Source: Bacillota bacterium (GTDB taxonomy: Bacteria > Bacillota > UBA4882 > UBA10575). From it: a stretch of DNA of 64,000 nt. This document shows positions 28,076-57,322 of the stretch, in pieces. Position numbers and translations under genes: made by a program. The stretch is taken from contig DUOH01000034.1 of NCBI GenBank assembly GCA_012838955.1, positions 1-64,000 on the forward strand, given 5' to 3'. Below the pieces are notes generated by a model. It searched no databases. It was not told the origin of the DNA and saw only the letters and a program-made list of their open reading frames with translations. Position 1 is the first letter of the stretch. Each line of letters begins with the position of its first letter.

Positions 28076-29488
28076 GTGAGAGAGTTGGGGTACACGATAA
28101 TCGGAGCGAAAGAAACAGCAGACGGTAGACGGCTCTACCTGGGGAAAGCTGAAGATGGTAGTCAAACGTTGCTGGAGGCGTTGAATTTAACCGTTTCCGG
28201 GCGCGAAGTTTCTTTGCTACGGGATTTACGTAATGCCATACAAGCGTTACCCGCGCCGGGAGAGGTTCCGGGGCCAGCCGGGGAAGTAGTAATGTATCAA
28301 GAATTGCTAAGAATAGAGGGAGAGCTCTACTTACAACTTCCTTATGACGAAAGAATCTGGGATAATTGGGAGAATAATGGAGTGGTTGGACTTTCCCCAC
28401 AGCAAGTGGTGACTGCGGCTGAGGCTATGTTGACGGTGCTCGACAGATTAAAAAATCAGGAGGAATTGGATTTTACGGGTTTTACCCCACAGGATCTGGT
28501 TTTATTGGGACCGGAAGAGTGGGCTGTCTTCGATCCCAGGGTACGGACGTTACTTGTGCCGTACAGGGCTGAAGACAGACAAAGGAGGTATTTTTTCCCG
28601 CCGGAGATCATCAAGGGCGAGCGCTGGACGGAAGATTCCCATATTTACACGATAGGTTTGACTCTTTATCTATTAGGGACAGGGGTTTTCCCCTATCCGT
28701 TGGACGGAGAGGAAAAGACGGTAACCGCCATTATGCGGGAAAAACCGTTGGATCCCAGGTATCACCGGCCGGAAATCAGTGAGTCTTTGGCCCGGTTTAT
28801 CTTGACTGTTTTGCACAAAGAAGCTAAAGAGCGGCTGGGATTGGCGTCGGCAATTGAATTCATCAGGAAGATTAAAGAGACAGGAGATAGGGCTACTCCT
28901 GAGGAGGAGGCGCGTCTGCGGGAAGAGGCCGGGGTCAAGTTGAGACAGGCGGAGCGGAGACGGCGGGCTTACTGGTGGTGGCAACGGACAAAAATACCGG
29001 CGCTGGTTGGCGCCTTTGTCTTAGTATTTTTATTTGCCGTAACTAGAGGAGGTTACCAAGAAATAATTACTCCTCAGACCAAACCCGAAGAGGTGGTTGG
29101 TTATTTCTATGAAGCTATCTCAGAATTGGATGACCTGAAACTCCAAGAAACTTTGGATAAAGCGGCAAAGCGCGCCGGGGGTAAGGAATTCGATAATATG
29201 GTGGTTAATTTAAAAGTAATTCATAAAATGAGATTGGCGTACGAGGGAGACCGCACCCCTGCTCTAATCGTAGACAATCTAAAATTGACCAGAGAAACCG
29301 CAGGCACTGTTGAAAACCCGGTGTTTGAGGGAGAGTACACTTTGAAGATCTTGGAAGGCGACCGTTATTTAGTGCAAGAGAGGAGAGATCGGATTATCTT
29401 GGGGCGAGTGAAGGATGAGTGGCGCATCATTGCTCTGGATTCGCAGGTGGTGGCGGAGCGGATAGAGGCGGTTCCGCTCAAACCTTGA
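28076..29488 (+). CDS. Membrane pseudokinase (degenerate Ser/Thr kinase-like protein)
   Basis: 470 residues, GTG start after AAGGAGGTGA. Residues about 1-270 follow a protein-kinase plan: weak N-lobe, then FTPQDLVLLGPEEWAVFDPR where active kinases have HRDLKPxN and DFG, then PPEIIKGERWTEDSHIYTIG and LYLLGTGVFPYP, which match the APE and D-x-Y-x-x-G C-lobe motifs. The catalytic Asp of HRD, the DFG motif and a clear Gly loop are absent. A basic linker leads to a membrane helix (about 307-325) and an outside domain (about 340-470) resembling an NTF2-like or TcaA-like fold. Probably a non-catalytic scaffold or sensor. It could partner the kinase at 51742. Confidence 0.72.
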   Translation: MRELGYTIIGAKETADGRRLYLGKAEDGSQTLLEALNLTVSGREVSLLRDLRNAIQALPAPGEVPGPAGEVVMYQELLRIEGELYLQLPYDERIWDNWENNGVVGLSPQQVVTAAEAMLTVLDRLKNQEELDFTGFTPQDLVLLGPEEWAVFDPRVRTLLVPYRAEDRQRRYFFPPEIIKGERWTEDSHIYTIGLTLYLLGTGVFPYPLDGEEKTVTAIMREKPLDPRYHRPEISESLARFILTVLHKEAKERLGLASAIEFIRKIKETGDRATPEEEARLREEAGVKLRQAERRRRAYWWWQRTKIPALVGAFVLVFLFAVTRGGYQEIITPQTKPEEVVGYFYEAISELDDLKLQETLDKAAKRAGGKEFDNMVVNLKVIHKMRLAYEGDRTPALIVDNLKLTRETAGTVENPVFEGEYTLKILEGDRYLVQERRDRIILGRVKDEWRIIALDSQVVAERIEAVPLKP

Positions 29489-51741: not shown

Positions 51742-53535
51742 ATGAAAGCAGGGAAGAAAAAGAGACGGGTCCCCAAAAACCTCTGTTTGAGTTGTATGTC
51801 TGAGAAAGGGAAAGCCGATGTTTGCCCGGTGTGTGGATGGCATAAAGGGGAACAACCGGATTCTCCCTTATTTTTATTACCAGGGACAGTGCTTAATGAC
51901 AGATACCTTTTTGGGCGGGTTTTGGGGCACGGCGGTTTTGGTATTACTTATTTGGCATGGGATTTAAATCTCCACATTAAACTGGCGATCAAGGAGTATC
52001 TGCCACAGAATTTGGCCACCCGGGCGCCTGGTAGTAATGTAGTATCCGTCTTCACCGGTGAAGCGAGAAAGCACTTTGAATATGGGTTGGAAAAGTTTAT
52101 CGAGGAAGCCAGGATACTCGCGCAATTCAACGGCCATCCATGTATCGTTTCCGTACATGGCTTTTTCCGGGAGAATGAAACGGCTTATTTGATCATGGAC
52201 TACCTGGAGGGGATCACCCTCAAAGATTATGTGGAGGGAAGAGACGGTAAAATACCTGTTGAAGCAGGTTTGGAAATTATGATGCCGGTGATGGATGCCC
52301 TCCGGGAGGTGCATAATGTAGGTTTACTGCACCGGGATATTAGTCCGGAGAATATTTATATCACCAGTTCGAAACAGGTGAGACTCTTGGATTTCGGCGC
52401 GGCCAGAATGGCCGTGGGCGAACAAAGCAGGAGTCTTTCGGTGATTTTAAAACCGGGATATGCTCCGGAAGAGCAGTATCGAAACAAGGGTAATCAAGGA
52501 CCATGGACTGATGTGTACGGGGTGGCGGCCACTATTTACCGGGTGATCACAGGGAAGGTACCTGTGGAAGCCCTGGAGAGGCTCGAGAGGGATTCTTTAC
52601 AACCCCCGTCCGCCTTGGGAGTAACCATCTCTCCCGTGCTTGAGGCCGCTTTAATGAAGGCCTTATCGGTCAGGGCGAAAGATCGCTATCAATCCATCAA
52701 AGAGTTTCAAGACGAGATTGGCAAGTATCTACAGAGTAAAAAAAGTGAACAATCGAAAGATGGGAAAGAGGGGAGCAGCAACGGTGCTCCGTCCCAGGCG
52801 GTTGGTGCGGCTGGGTCCAAGGTGGCGCCAGAAGAGACCCGTTCCAGTCTTTCCGATATGTTCTTGGTTTTCAGGGTAATCATGATTCTGCTGGGTGTGA
52901 TTGGCCTGGCTTCCTGGTTCGACAATTATCAGCGGTTGACCAATTTAAAGTATCAGTACAGCAATTTGGTGGAAGACCATGCGGCGCTCAAAGAAGAATT
53001 GGCCTTGGCTAAAGAACAGTTAAGAAAGGTTACTGCCGGAAACCGCGACTCGGGGTTCTATGATCGGTATTATCAGCTTTCCAGGGATTATCATCAACTG
53101 AACAAACAATTCAAGGCAATTCAGGAAGAGTTGGCCGAGGAATGCCGGGATCTATCCATAGAGGTGGTGGGTTTTGATCTGAAAAACACCGGTAAGGGGG
53201 AGCGGCCGCTTGGCGGGGATTCGGTGATTTTCTCCGCTAATGAAATCCGGTATATCACATTTTATATAACATTGCAAAATAAGACAACAGACGTGACCAG
53301 GATTCAGGGTAGACTGGCCATCAAATATTTTAATCCCGACGGCTCTTTGCAGTGGAACAGTAAGAGCAGCCCTCCCGGGTGTACCTTATACGCTGAATTT
53401 GATCTAGCCGATCGAACTATAGTCACCGGAGGATGGGGAGACAGCAGCAAGAATATTTTTAAGGAAGGAACTAATCTGATCGAAGTCTGGTATGAGGGGC
53501 GGAAACTTGCGGAGAAAAAATTCGTGGTGTTTTGA
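51742..53535 (+). CDS. Zinc-ribbon membrane Ser/Thr protein kinase with coiled-coil ectodomain
   Basis: 597 residues. N-terminal zinc ribbon (Cys15, Cys18, Cys28, Cys31), then a full kinase domain (about 52-330): glycine loop VLGHGGFGITYLAWD, Lys in LAIKEYLP, HRDISPEN, LLDFGAAR and PGYAPEEQY. Catalytic residues are intact, so ATP-dependent Ser/Thr phosphorylation is expected. A Ser-rich linker leads to one membrane helix (about 373-392), an extracellular coiled coil (about 395-470) and a beta-rich C-terminal domain (about 475-597). First gene of a five-gene unit with two phosphatases and two FHA proteins. No PASTA repeats, so it is not a PrkC/Stk muropeptide receptor. Confidence 0.9.
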   Translation: MKAGKKKRRVPKNLCLSCMSEKGKADVCPVCGWHKGEQPDSPLFLLPGTVLNDRYLFGRVLGHGGFGITYLAWDLNLHIKLAIKEYLPQNLATRAPGSNVVSVFTGEARKHFEYGLEKFIEEARILAQFNGHPCIVSVHGFFRENETAYLIMDYLEGITLKDYVEGRDGKIPVEAGLEIMMPVMDALREVHNVGLLHRDISPENIYITSSKQVRLLDFGAARMAVGEQSRSLSVILKPGYAPEEQYRNKGNQGPWTDVYGVAATIYRVITGKVPVEALERLERDSLQPPSALGVTISPVLEAALMKALSVRAKDRYQSIKEFQDEIGKYLQSKKSEQSKDGKEGSSNGAPSQAVGAAGSKVAPEETRSSLSDMFLVFRVIMILLGVIGLASWFDNYQRLTNLKYQYSNLVEDHAALKEELALAKEQLRKVTAGNRDSGFYDRYYQLSRDYHQLNKQFKAIQEELAEECRDLSIEVVGFDLKNTGKGERPLGGDSVIFSANEIRYITFYITLQNKTTDVTRIQGRLAIKYFNPDGSLQWNSKSSPPGCTLYAEFDLADRTIVTGGWGDSSKNIFKEGTNLIEVWYEGRKLAEKKFVVF

Positions 53536-53561
53536 GCCGGTACGGAATTAGGGGTGTGAGC

Positions 53562-54428
53562 ATGAAAACTGATAAAAGGCCAACCATGGCGAAGCTTCTT
53601 TACGAGCATATCCGGCGGCTCACCCGGCAGGATCCGGCGTGCGCTAGGGAGATCAGTAGAGTTCATCCGGGAAATGCGCAGACTATCGGGGCCCGTGAGG
53701 AACAACAAGACGCCTTTGGCTTCTCCGAAATCGGGGAAGAAAAGTCGTTGAGTCAGACCGGAGTTTTAGCCGTTTTGGCGGACGGGATGGGGGGACTACA
53801 GATGGGCAGGGAGGCCGCGCATTTGGCAGTGCAAACAATGCTTAAAGAGTTTGCGGCCAGACGCGGCGCTATCGAGTTTTCCGCTGAGCCGGTCCAGCAC
53901 ACGCTGTGGCATATATTGGAGAAAGCAAATAGTGTGGTGTACGAGACCGCCCGTCAACAGGGACTAGCTCTTAAAGTCGGCACTACTTTGGCAGCGGCGG
54001 CGGTCTTACGGAACGAGTTGTTTTGGGTGTCCGTCGGTGACAGCAGGATCTATTTATATCGTGACCATGAACTTTCTCAACTAAATGTAGAACACATTTA
54101 CGGGCGGGAGTTGGATCGGAAAGCATTGCATCAGGAAATTACTTGGGAAGAAGCTCAAGCCCATCGGGATCGGGAAGCCCTCACCAGTTATGTGGGGATG
54201 CCGGAGTTGTGCGAGGTTGACCGGAATCTTAAAGGGTTGCCGCTACGCGCCGGGGACTGGATTATGCTTTGTAGTGATGGGGTGTATCGTGCGCTTTCCA
54301 TTGAGGAGATCAAAGAAGAGTTGGCCGGTGATCCGGCAGAAGCAGCGGAATCACTAATCCGGATGGTGATCGAGAAAGAGAAGGCGGGTCAGGATAACGC
54401 CACTGTGGCTATTCTCGCCTGTGAATGA
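53562..54428 (+). CDS. PP2C-family Ser/Thr phosphatase (first copy)
   Basis: 288 residues from the ATG at 53562, after GGGGTGTGAG; it starts 26 nt past the kinase stop. The N-terminal 45 residues are an extra basic segment. PP2C metal motifs are present: REEQQDAFGF (the usual NEDA is QQDA), VLADGMGG, VSVGDSRIYLY, LCSDGVYRAL and AGQDNATV. It should remove phosphate from Ser/Thr residues set by the kinase. No membrane segment. It pairs with a second, different PP2C next door. Confidence 0.92.
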   Translation: MKTDKRPTMAKLLYEHIRRLTRQDPACAREISRVHPGNAQTIGAREEQQDAFGFSEIGEEKSLSQTGVLAVLADGMGGLQMGREAAHLAVQTMLKEFAARRGAIEFSAEPVQHTLWHILEKANSVVYETARQQGLALKVGTTLAAAAVLRNELFWVSVGDSRIYLYRDHELSQLNVEHIYGRELDRKALHQEITWEEAQAHRDREALTSYVGMPELCEVDRNLKGLPLRAGDWIMLCSDGVYRALSIEEIKEELAGDPAEAAESLIRMVIEKEKAGQDNATVAILACE

Positions 54429-54471
54429 GGAGACCGGTAAGAATAATTAATGGCAAGGAAGAGGGGGTATT

Positions 54472-55209
54472 ATGAGATTTCAAACCGCGACCCTTTCCAG
54501 AAACGGCGGGCGAAGAGATAATGAGGATTACATAGTATATAAAGAAGAGGGAGGCTACACCTGTTGGGTGGTGGCAGACGGTTTAGGCGGACATCCGGGA
54601 GGGGCATTAGCCTCTCGGGTAGTGGCGGAAGAGATCGCCAAGAGGTTTTTTTCAACTAAACGGATTGATGTCGCCTCTATTCGCTTATATATGAAGACCG
54701 CCCATGAAATACTGGTACAGCAACAAGTAGCAGAGGGATCGGTCCAGTCTTACAAAACTACTGTAGTAGCGCTTTTTACAGACGGAAGGAACATGCGATG
54801 GGGACATGTGGGAGACTCCAGAATTTACCGTATTCATCGGGGCGCGGTTGTCTATCAATCCAGAGATCATAGTGTTCCCCAGATGATGGTGGAGGCTGGA
54901 GAGTTGAAGCCCGGTGAGATTCGTTTTCATGAAGATCGGAACAGGTTGTTACGGGTCTTCGGGATGCGTGGGGATCTGCAGCCGGAGGTTGATAAAGAGC
55001 TTACGTCGGCGCTGAAGGGAGACGCCTATCTACTTTGTACCGATGGTTTTTGGGAGTATGTGACTGAGACTGAGATGGAGATCGACTTTGCAAAGGCGGC
55101 TTCGCCTGAAGAGTGGCTTGCTTATATGGAAGAACGGTTATTGCAGCGCGTTCAGTTGCGAGCGAGAAGGGGGTTTGATAATTATTCGGCTATAGGAGTC
55201 TTTTGCTGA
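54472..55209 (+). CDS. PP2C-family Ser/Thr phosphatase (second copy)
   Basis: 245 residues, a minimal PP2C domain: RRDNEDYIVYKEE, VVADGLGGHPGG, HVGDSRIYRIH, LLCTDGFWEYV and FDNYSAIGVFC. All metal-binding acidic residues are present. It is clearly divergent from the 53562 gene, so the two probably act on different phosphoproteins (for example kinase and FHA ligand) rather than being a recent duplication. Ribosome binding site AGAGGGGG about 7 nt before the ATG. Part of the kinase-FHA operon. Confidence 0.92.
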   Translation: MRFQTATLSRNGGRRDNEDYIVYKEEGGYTCWVVADGLGGHPGGALASRVVAEEIAKRFFSTKRIDVASIRLYMKTAHEILVQQQVAEGSVQSYKTTVVALFTDGRNMRWGHVGDSRIYRIHRGAVVYQSRDHSVPQMMVEAGELKPGEIRFHEDRNRLLRVFGMRGDLQPEVDKELTSALKGDAYLLCTDGFWEYVTETEMEIDFAKAASPEEWLAYMEERLLQRVQLRARRGFDNYSAIGVFC

Positions 55210-55253
55210 TTGTAGAGTAAGCAGAGAAATAGAAGTATTGAGGAGGAGTTACT

Positions 55254-55793
55254 ATGGAATCTAGAAGATGTGAAAACGGGCATTATTATGATCCGGAGAA
55301 GCATAGTTCTTGTCCGCATTGCGGGGTAAACATCGACCTGGATCCAAATGAGAGTCGGGGATATACCAGATCTAATCCATCAGGATTAACAGGGGTCAGA
55401 GGAAGTAGCGGTGCGGAAGGGAAGACCATTGCCATGATCAATAAGCAACTGGGGATCGATCCGGTGGTTGGATGGCTGGTCTGTATTGAAGGCCCTGATC
55501 GAGGTAGAGATTACCGGTTGCGTAGTGAGAAGAATTTTATCGGACGTTCGGAGAAGATGGACATCTGCATCGCCGGAGACGGCTCCATCTCCCGGGAGAA
55601 TCATGCCACCGTCAGCCATAATCCGAAGAATAATTCGTTCAAAATCTACCCGGGAGAAGGCCGGGGACTGGTCTATTTAAACAACGAAGAAGTGGATACG
55701 CCCAGAGAGCTTAATCCGTATGATATTATTGAATTGGGACAGACCAAATTAGTCTTCGTGCCTTTGTGCGGTGAGGCGTTCTCATGGGATTAA
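55254..55793 (+). CDS. Zinc-ribbon FHA-domain protein
   Basis: 179 residues. N-terminal zinc-binding motif (Cys6, His10, Cys20, Cys23: CENGHYYDPEKHSSCPHCG), a flexible Ser/Gly/Thr linker (about 32-62) that could be phosphorylated, then an FHA domain (about 75-172) with NFIGRSEKMDICI, SISRENHATVSH and YLNNEEV. FHA domains bind phosphothreonine peptides, so this is a cytoplasmic reader of the adjacent kinase. It overlaps the next gene by 10 nt. GAGGAGGAG precedes the ATG. Confidence 0.92.
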   Translation: MESRRCENGHYYDPEKHSSCPHCGVNIDLDPNESRGYTRSNPSGLTGVRGSSGAEGKTIAMINKQLGIDPVVGWLVCIEGPDRGRDYRLRSEKNFIGRSEKMDICIAGDGSISRENHATVSHNPKNNSFKIYPGEGRGLVYLNNEEVDTPRELNPYDIIELGQTKLVFVPLCGEAFSWD

Positions 55794-57259
55794 TAGGCAA
55801 TAAACAAGCTGGTCTGGGCAGGCTGCTCCGGTTGGCGATCTTCTGCTGTGGCCTCTTTCTCTCTTCTACTACAGCGCTGGGGGGAGAGGCTTGTACTTTA
55901 CGTTTGCGTCAGGCCTATCCTTTGGCGGATGAGATCCAGGTTTATCTGGATATTTTGGATGAAAACGAGGATCAAATTCAAGGTTTAAGCCTGAGCGAGC
56001 TAGGGTTGACTGCAAATTTGGGACAAAAGTCCTGCCGGATTCGGGGTTTTAAGCCCTTTGTCCAGACGGATGAAGGCGTGGCTTATGTTTTTTTGGTGGA
56101 TGTCTCCAAATCCCTGACGGAAGAAGAGTTCCGCCAGATGAAAGAAGCCATGGGGATTTGGGTTGGAGCCATGACGGATAAAGATCGGGCGGCTGTAGTT
56201 ACGTTCGGTGAATCCGTGCGGGTGGTTCAGGATTACACCGGTGACCAAACGGTCTTGCGAAAAGTCATTGACCTTTTGTCTCCCAAGGATCTAAAGACTC
56301 AGTTACACCGGGGATTGGCTAAAGCCATTGAGCTGGGGAGGCGAAGCGACCCGCAACTGCCGACCAGACGGGTGGTTATCACGCTCTCCGATGGCCGTGA
56401 GGATTATACCGGCGGAATGGTCAAAGATGAGGTCTTGGCCATGCTGATGGAAGATAGAATACCCATCTATGCGCTGGGATTTTATAGACCGCCCTTATCG
56501 GCGGAGAAACAAAGATACCTGGATGTGCTTGGAGAGTTCGCTCGTAGATCCGGAGGAGATTATTGGCAAATGAATTCCACCCCGATTGTCCAGGCTTACT
56601 CCAATGTACGGAGGCGGATCTTGCAAAGCTATGTGGTAAGTGTTGCTTGCCCAGAGCAAGTAATGGATGGAAGTGTTACGCATCTTCGTCTGAATCTGAC
56701 CCAAGGAGGAAAAGTCCTTAGTGACGGAATTGACCTCCGGTTGGTCGCGGCTGCCGCCGGAGCCAGCGTTGAGCGTGGTTCCAAGGGAAAATGGGTTATC
56801 TTTGTGATTATTGGTCTGTTAATAGTCGGCTCTTTGGTGGTGGCCTTATTTAAGTATAAGGCAGCGCAGAGCAATTATCCTGTAGAAGAAGTAATAGCTG
56901 AAGCAGAGTCTGGGGCGGAGGAGGATAAACCAAGTTTACCAGGGATTAAAATCAGGCTTACTCCGACAGGGAAAAGTGAAGGAGATCAAGCCTTTGAACT
57001 GAAACTGATTGACCGGATCACCCTGGGCAGAGAAAGAGCAGAGAATGATCTGAGCTTTTCTGATCAAGAAATCTCCAGAAAACATTGTGAGTTAACGCGG
57101 GAAGAGGATCTTGTCTTCATCCGAGACTTGGCTTCCAGGAACGGAACTTATGTGAACGGGGTACCAATCAGTGGCCGCCACCGGTTGGAAAACGGAGATG
57201 TGATTGTGATTGGCCGGACGGAATTGCGTATTTCCTTCGATTCCCAACTTGTTTTCTAG
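55784..57259 (+). CDS. VWA-TM-FHA membrane protein
   Basis: 491 residues. Signal peptide or N-terminal helix (about 14-34); extracellular von Willebrand A domain (about 95-290) with a full metal site (DVSKS, Thr in DLKTQLHRG, TLSDGRED); beta-rich extension; one membrane helix (about 335-355); acidic linker; cytoplasmic FHA domain (about 395-485: ITLGRERAENDLSF, QEISRKHCEL, SRNGTYVNG). VWA domains bind protein ligands through the metal ion, FHA binds phosphothreonine. The protein can link an outside contact to inside phospho-signalling. It overlaps the FHA gene by 10 nt and ends the operon. Confidence 0.93.
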   Translation: MGLIGNKQAGLGRLLRLAIFCCGLFLSSTTALGGEACTLRLRQAYPLADEIQVYLDILDENEDQIQGLSLSELGLTANLGQKSCRIRGFKPFVQTDEGVAYVFLVDVSKSLTEEEFRQMKEAMGIWVGAMTDKDRAAVVTFGESVRVVQDYTGDQTVLRKVIDLLSPKDLKTQLHRGLAKAIELGRRSDPQLPTRRVVITLSDGREDYTGGMVKDEVLAMLMEDRIPIYALGFYRPPLSAEKQRYLDVLGEFARRSGGDYWQMNSTPIVQAYSNVRRRILQSYVVSVACPEQVMDGSVTHLRLNLTQGGKVLSDGIDLRLVAAAAGASVERGSKGKWVIFVIIGLLIVGSLVVALFKYKAAQSNYPVEEVIAEAESGAEEDKPSLPGIKIRLTPTGKSEGDQAFELKLIDRITLGRERAENDLSFSDQEISRKHCELTREEDLVFIRDLASRNGTYVNGVPISGRHRLENGDVIVIGRTELRISFDSQLVF

Positions 57260-57294
57260 TTTTTTTATAAACTTTTGAGTAGACAGGGGTATGG

Positions 57295-57322
57295 GGGCGT
57301 GTTTTCAACACGCCCTGTTTTT
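57295..57322 (+). terminator. Terminator of the kinase-phosphatase-FHA operon
   Basis: GGGCGTGTT - TTC - AACACGCCC followed by TGTTTTT. Confidence 0.9.

Follow-up and report, generated by a model that had tools for sequence, protein, structure and literature searches.

The window examined here is a stretch of 64,000 nucleotides of contig DUOH01000034.1 (assembly GCA_012838955.1) from a Bacillota bacterium, called the host below. At positions 51742-57259 of the forward strand, it holds five intact open reading frames (ORFs) arranged head to tail. They encode a zinc-ribbon receptor Ser/Thr kinase, two PP2C phosphatases, a small zinc-ribbon FHA protein (ZnR-FHA) and a membrane protein with a VWA and an FHA domain (VWA-FHA). 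Pfam supports every domain named for the five ORFs, and the description given in an earlier note, a tight cassette of writers, erasers and readers, therefore holds. Sequence comparisons indicate that the cassette is a conserved unit; it is also an accessory one, found sporadically among related genomes. The features of the locus are as follows.

51742..53535 (+), zinc-ribbon receptor Ser/Thr kinase of 597 aa, with an N-terminal Cys4 ribbon, a kinase domain (ORF and Pkinase match, 3.4e-30), one transmembrane (TM) helix and a predicted extracellular C-terminal part
51784..51834 (+), zinc ribbon of the kinase, residues 15-31 (CLSCMSEKGKADVCPVC; C15-x2-C18...C28-x2-C31), its Cys conserved in relatives
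52858..52920 (+), TM helix of the kinase, residues 373-393, from hydropathy
52921..53532 (+), predicted ectodomain of the kinase, a helical hairpin or coiled coil followed by a beta-sandwich-like part (low-confidence single-sequence model, pLDDT 60)
53562..54428 (+), PP2C phosphatase A (PP2C-A; Pfam PP2C_2, 3.9e-15), alternative start TTG 53532
54472..55209 (+), PP2C phosphatase B (PP2C-B), 245 aa (Pfam PP2C_2, 8.8e-14)
55254..55793 (+), small soluble ZnR-FHA protein, 179 aa, with a GarA/OdhI-like FHA fold (Pfam FHA, 2.9e-7)
55269..55322 (+), Cys3His zinc ribbon of ZnR-FHA, residues 6-23 (C6-x3-H10...C20-P-x-C23)
55425..55427 (+), codon of linker Thr58 of ZnR-FHA, a candidate phospho-switch residue directly behind a segment modelled as disordered (residues 28-56)
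55784..57259 (+), VWA-FHA membrane protein, 491 aa (Pfam VWA, 2.4e-14, and FHA, 1.2e-20), with a signal-like segment (14-33), a predicted extracellular VWA domain with the DxSxS metal-site motif (106-110), a TM segment (337-356) and a cytosolic FHA domain (412-477), assigned by Pfam and hydropathy
57294..57316 (+), intrinsic terminator-like hairpin, a 10-pair stem with a T run behind it, from a consensus scan

Gene layout and the five encoded proteins

The genes were expected to form a tight unit with overlaps or short gaps and a shared terminator. The ZnR-FHA and VWA-FHA genes indeed overlap by 10 bases, but the overlap of the kinase and PP2C-A genes gives way to a short gap. PP2C-A most likely starts at ATG 53562 and not at the listed TTG 53532. 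The sequence AGGGG lies seven bases upstream of this ATG, which leaves a 26-base gap behind the kinase stop, while the TTG would overlap the kinase stop codon. The hairpin with its T run is present at the end of the cassette, but such matches are no commoner in the region than in shuffled sequence (7 versus 5.8 +/- 2.6), and the match is thus not above chance. The promoter scan of the region gave no candidate better than chance. The GC content of the cassette equals that of its flanks, and therefore gives no sign of recent arrival.

The kinase has the fold, Lys, HRD and DFG motifs (AIKEY, HRDISPEN and DFG, the latter within DFGAAR) and the TM helix of a Hanks-type receptor Ser/Thr kinase. In HRDISPEN, Ser replaces the Lys typical of most Ser/Thr kinases. 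This variant is usual in the group, as HRDISPDN, HRDVSPDN or HRDISPEN occurs in 77 of 111 related kinase domains. The Cys4 ribbon reported earlier at the N-terminus was borne out: the four Cys are invariant in 11 aligned kinases, and a zinc ribbon precedes 101 of the 111 kinase domains. Behind the kinase domain, a TM-like segment is found in 83 of the 97 related kinases that are not cut by a contig end. Ribbon and kinase domain are constant in these proteins and the tails are hyper-variable, with 59 Pfam families over the 91 tails scanned, including MORN, FHA, FGE-sulfatase, LRR, PASTA (5 of the 91), Sel1, ankyrin, DUF5050, C-type lectin and beta-lactamase. Some of these families, e.g., FHA, may sit before the TM segment, inside the cell. 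The tail of the window kinase has no Pfam match and, as previously claimed, no PASTA repeats. The protein is not a PASTA kinase of the PrkC/PknB type, scoring 164 bits with the NCBIfam profile against a cut-off of 450. No relative of its ectodomain was found among 399 genomes of the phylum.

The two phosphatases are only 25% identical, and the metal-site Asp motifs of the PP2C class are present in both, in line with their description as divergent. The PP2C-A family has the motifs R-x2-Q-x-D, DGMGG, GDS, DG and DN, and in PP2C-B the motifs NxD, DGLGG, GD, DG and DN are kept across 61 aligned sequences. The first metal motif differs, reading QQD in PP2C-A and NED in PP2C-B.

The Cys3His ribbon that had been proposed for the small FHA protein is fully conserved, with C6, H10, C20 and C23 each found in 86 of 86 sequences. 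The structure model of ZnR-FHA is confident in the ribbon and in the FHA part (pLDDT about 97 in the latter), and residues 28-56 between them are disordered. Among solved structures, GarA and OdhI come closest to it (top PDB matches 7rj3, 6i2p, 8p5x and 4qcj), and they are also the best sequence match of the FHA domain. The FHA domain of ArnA (5a8i) is among the structural matches as well. At the family level, ZnR-FHA lies outside the OdhI group (20.5 bits with the NCBIfam profile against a cut-off of 200). The best-conserved columns of the linker are Thr, namely Thr58 (87 of 88 homologues), column 34 (71 of 82) and column 46 (56 of 80). FHA domains bind phospho-Thr with selectivity at position +3, and 70 of 88 homologues have a hydrophobic residue (V, I, L or M) at +3 from Thr58. 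In GarA and OdhI, PknG phosphorylates an ETTS motif that precedes the FHA domain (PMC8546545). The parallel between Thr58 and this phospho-switch is suggestive.

The VWA-FHA protein belongs to a wider set of membrane FHA proteins. A TM segment separates VWA from FHA in 37 of 37 sequences, trypsin from FHA in 50 of 52, and Big_2 from FHA in 9 of 9. Thus, the order of outside domain, TM segment and FHA is found in 96 of 98 proteins, a mirror of the kinase layout. The counts given for these proteins were obtained with domain-trimmed profiles. In the host, the trypsin-FHA query matched at two other loci, with its trypsin part only. Other partners occur in some lineages, such as PrsW-FHA, multi-spanning membrane-FHA, MotA/ExbB-like and coiled-coil proteins. 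For instance, a PrsW-family intramembrane protease fused to FHA lies inside the cassette of locus L066 (13488-14837). In Acidobacteriota, Desulfamplus and a Burkholderiales bin (L064:2785-4823, L062, L069, L054, L055, L027 and L030), the cassette also encodes a coiled-coil membrane protein and one resembling MotA/TolQ/ExbB, which suggests a partner driven by ions.

Conservation, distribution and flanking genes

The ZnR-FHA alignment alone was scanned against one genome per species, which gave 80 named loci. Of these, the 38 that span 15 kb or more served to count co-occurrence, a sample restricted to ZnR-FHA proteins that match the scan patterns. On the same strand as ZnR-FHA, a zinc-ribbon kinase was found in 37 of the 38 loci, PP2C-A in 37, PP2C-B in 32 and another FHA protein in 37. 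Kinase, PP2C-A and PP2C-B occur all together in 31. At least one VWA or trypsin protein is encoded in 34 loci (VWA-FHA in 24, trypsin-FHA in 26). Trypsin-FHA is thus as common a cassette member as VWA-FHA and is missing from the cassette of the window. The genes are not scattered, which would have refuted the earlier note, and its proposal of one unit stands, except that the set is not confined to Bacillota. Pairwise distances of ZnR-FHA, PP2C-A, PP2C-B and kinase correlate over 47 loci (r = 0.65-0.78; permutation maximum 0.29). According to record titles, many of which are those of metagenome bins, the tree covers at least seven phyla, i.e., Bacillota, Pseudomonadota, Synergistota, Acidobacteriota, Thermodesulfobacteriota, Myxococcota and Bdellovibrionota, and sequences group by phylum with few exceptions. 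Carriers available in culture include Bacillus taeanensis, Blautia sp. An249 and Anoxynatronum buryatiense.

Among close relatives of the host, the cassette is rare. Of 29 genomes of the class, 2 gave a kinase match at E <= 1e-40; one of these is the window's own, and the remaining 15 genomes of its family gave none. At E <= 1e-50, 8 of 399 genomes of the phylum matched. Of 16 family genomes, 12 have the neighbouring dGTPase gene. Six regions around it were read; all differ from the window in gene order, and no clean empty site was found.

Other genomes of the class with a ZnR-FHA protein place the ZnR-FHA and PP2C-A genes in a different cluster, so that this pair looks like a reusable core. 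In loci L133 and L134, the genes of this sister cluster are those for DnaJ, TM-FHA, a PP2C-B fusion and a kinase that lacks the ribbon, and L133 adds a weakly Hsp70-like protein. The genes at L133 (20-12826; also L134, L135 and L136, from the same order or class) encode a weakly Hsp70-like protein of 881 aa, the ribbonless kinase, DnaJ, unannotated proteins of 727 and 142 aa, TM-FHA, ZnR-FHA, PP2C-A and a PP2C fusion of 542 aa. It looks like a chaperone-linked phospho-signalling system.

The flanks gave no name to the cassette. Among 145 same-strand neighbours scanned with Pfam, the commonest family occurred in 4, and the recurring families were mainly housekeeping ones (thymidylate kinase, HAD hydrolases). 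No conserved flanking partner and no secretion, effector, nuclease or toxin family recurred among them. VipB (VipB/TssC) of the type VI secretion system (T6SS) was found neither in the host nor in 13 other cassette genomes, with T6SS genes in 2 of 16. TerD was absent from the host and 10 other cassette genomes and present in 5 of the 16. A true EssC of the type VII secretion system (T7SS), scoring over the cut-off, was found in 1 of 16 cassette genomes, which is not the host. A labelled T6SS, Ter or T7SS locus was hence rejected for the host, and the earlier statement that the cassette belongs to no known secretion or Ter locus was upheld. The kinase and PP2C-B also drew PADLOC labels (models PD-T4-6 and PDC-M21C), which were rejected because what these models recognise here is a generic kinase or PP2C domain.

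Several side observations concern related genes. Just upstream of the cassette of another genome (G354, L022:3-4024), genes resemble, by eye, small pilin or Tad-type secreted membrane proteins. Within the window, a 470-aa protein at 28076-29488 (+) has a weak C-terminal kinase-lobe match (33.8 bits), one hydrophobic segment and, by eye, no HRD or DFG; it is a probable membrane pseudokinase. On another contig of the host (C49, L024:6878-10177), a housekeeping PASTA kinase, a PP2C and an FHA gene are adjacent, with neighbours resembling rsgA and rlmN by eye. Since this cluster is separate, the host has the window cassette besides its housekeeping set. The ZnR-FHA domain found by hmmscan escaped the search for FHA family members in the host, and the host count of FHA genes is therefore a lower bound.

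Proposed mechanism and alternative explanations

Domain content, conservation and gene linkage are observed, and the membrane topology is predicted from sequence. The cassette is probably a stand-alone membrane-based Ser/Thr phospho-signalling system, in which a receptor-kinase relay is combined with membrane FHA proteins and an FHA switch like that of GarA. This reading draws on the co-occurrence of the genes, their correlated distances, the conserved zinc ribbons, the variable kinase tails, the predicted topology, the likeness of the FHA fold to GarA/OdhI and the conserved Thr58 beside a disordered linker. An outside signal would alter the dimerisation or clustering of the kinase, which would then phosphorylate Thr residues, chiefly Thr58 in the ZnR-FHA linker. 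Phospho-Thr58 could bind its own FHA domain, as in a switch of the GarA/OdhI type, or those of the membrane proteins, and thereby assemble or release a complex under the membrane. Docking of the kinase and ZnR-FHA would probably be aided by their zinc ribbons, and PP2C-A and PP2C-B would remove the phospho-marks. The relay probably ends in altered envelope-exposed FHA partners (VWA here; elsewhere trypsin, Big_2 or PrsW-type) and not in transcription, because no conserved regulator accompanies the cassette. This envelope-localised output is the weakest step of the mechanism.

A few points weigh against this interpretation. Orphan zinc-ribbon kinases exist (L017, L018), and the sister cluster, which has the ZnR-FHA/PP2C-A pair, contains neither a zinc-ribbon kinase nor a VWA protein. 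The correlated distances stem partly from the shared ancestry of the hosts. Linker columns 34 and 46 are gap-prone, the window protein has Ser at 34, and Thr58 itself may be conserved for a structural reason. Moreover, the membrane topology is predicted by hydropathy only.

Under a bolder extension, which we regard as rather unlikely, VWA-FHA and trypsin-FHA would be outputs and not sensors: phosphorylation inside, read by the cytosolic FHA domain, would control binding or protease activity outside. If true, this would be bacterial inside-out signalling via a VWA/MIDAS protein, analogous to integrins and driven by receptor kinases with freely swapped sensor domains. Whether bacteria use inside-out phospho-signalling is a question prompted by membrane FHA proteins that carry VWA or protease domains on the outside.

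Three other explanations were considered. The cassette might be a detached relative of the T6SS threonine-phosphorylation pathway (PpkA, PppA, Fha) that switches an unrecognised contractile or secretion machine. The three activities of receptor kinase, PP2C and FHA protein are shared, the VI_FHA profile matches the FHA domain of VWA-FHA below its cut-off, and two cassette genomes hold T6SS genes. The absence of VipB from the host and 13 other genomes, together with the lack of any secretion family among recurrent neighbours, makes this explanation very unlikely and largely refutes it for the host. It is quite unlikely that kinase, PP2C and VWA serve to regulate an effector, as they would in a Ter-type (TerY-P) or anti-phage conflict system. 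TerY-P triads likewise join VWA, PP2C and kinase, the PADLOC models match two of the proteins, and the tail families FGE-sulfatase and C-type lectin are variable ligand binders in other systems. However, those model matches reach only generic domains, 11 of the 16 cassette genomes, the host's among them, lack TerD, the flanks hold no recurring effector, nuclease or toxin family, and the VWA protein here is membrane-anchored and fused to FHA.

It also seems distinctly improbable that the cassette duplicates the housekeeping PrkC-Stp-FHA cell-wall cluster and has its role. In favour are the joint presence of PASTA kinase, PP2C and FHA genes on contig C49 and the PASTA domains among related zinc-ribbon kinase tails (5 of 91). 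Against it, the window kinase lacks PASTA, carries HRDISPEN instead of HRDxKPxN and has a zinc ribbon. Furthermore, cell-wall Ser/Thr kinases are generally conserved, and the cassette is sporadic, with a kinase match in 1 of 16 family genomes.

In the stand-alone phospho-signalling system favoured here, exchangeable sensor domains outside the cell would be coupled to a conserved kinase in the cytosol, to two phosphatases and to FHA readers. Thr58 of ZnR-FHA offers a concrete handle on how a signal may pass from kinase to FHA protein outside Actinobacteria.

Comparison with described systems

No published description of the cassette as a unit was found in the open-licence PMC literature. A widespread bacterial signalling system has apparently been annotated gene by gene and, as a unit, is undescribed in the searchable literature.

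Several described systems share part of its plan. The PrkC/PknB-Stp-FHA housekeeping clusters also place kinase, PP2C and FHA readers side by side, but they have a PASTA ectodomain and neither a zinc-ribbon kinase nor VWA-FHA. The earlier note had named TerY-P and PpkA/PppA/Fha as the nearest described plans while noting that secretion and Ter genes are missing; TerD and VipB are indeed absent from the host. In the T6SS module, kinase, PP2C and FHA act together as well; the cassette differs by its two PP2Cs, its zinc ribbons, the fusion of VWA and FHA in one membrane protein and a host without T6SS. The TerY-P triad consists of kinase, PP2C and VWA, all of which recur here. In contrast, the host has no TerD, the VWA is part of a membrane protein fused to FHA, and ZnR-FHA and a second PP2C are additional. 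A zinc-ribbon kinase with adjacent PP2C and VWA genes is also mentioned for actinobacterial GAP1-N2 neighbourhoods (PMC7159879). These neighbourhoods are restricted to Actinobacteria and linked to the GAP1-N2 GTPase, and the passage on them names no FHA proteins (PMC7159879).

GarA/OdhI with PknB/PknG offer the closest FHA fold and a conserved Thr motif N-terminal to the FHA domain. They differ in that this motif is ETTS and that they act on central metabolism in Actinobacteria. Moreover, GarA and OdhI have no zinc ribbon, whereas ZnR-FHA has one.

In plan, the best described analogue is the archaeal ArnA-ArnB module. It comprises ArnA (zinc finger and FHA), ArnB (VWA), the kinases ArnC and ArnD and the phosphatase PP2A (PMC6509490). 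ArnB consists of a VWA domain, a beta-sandwich and a helix bundle, and the module represses archaellum expression (PMC6509490). The likeness, judged by domain content and conserved Cys/His, lies in a zinc-finger FHA protein and a VWA protein within a network of Ser/Thr kinases and a phosphatase. In contrast to the cassette with its VWA-FHA, PP2C and Cys3His ribbon, ArnB has no described FHA domain, the phosphatase is PP2A, and ArnA carries a RanBP2-type four-Cys finger. Of all plans described, those of the archaeal ArnA-ArnB module and GarA/OdhI are the closest.

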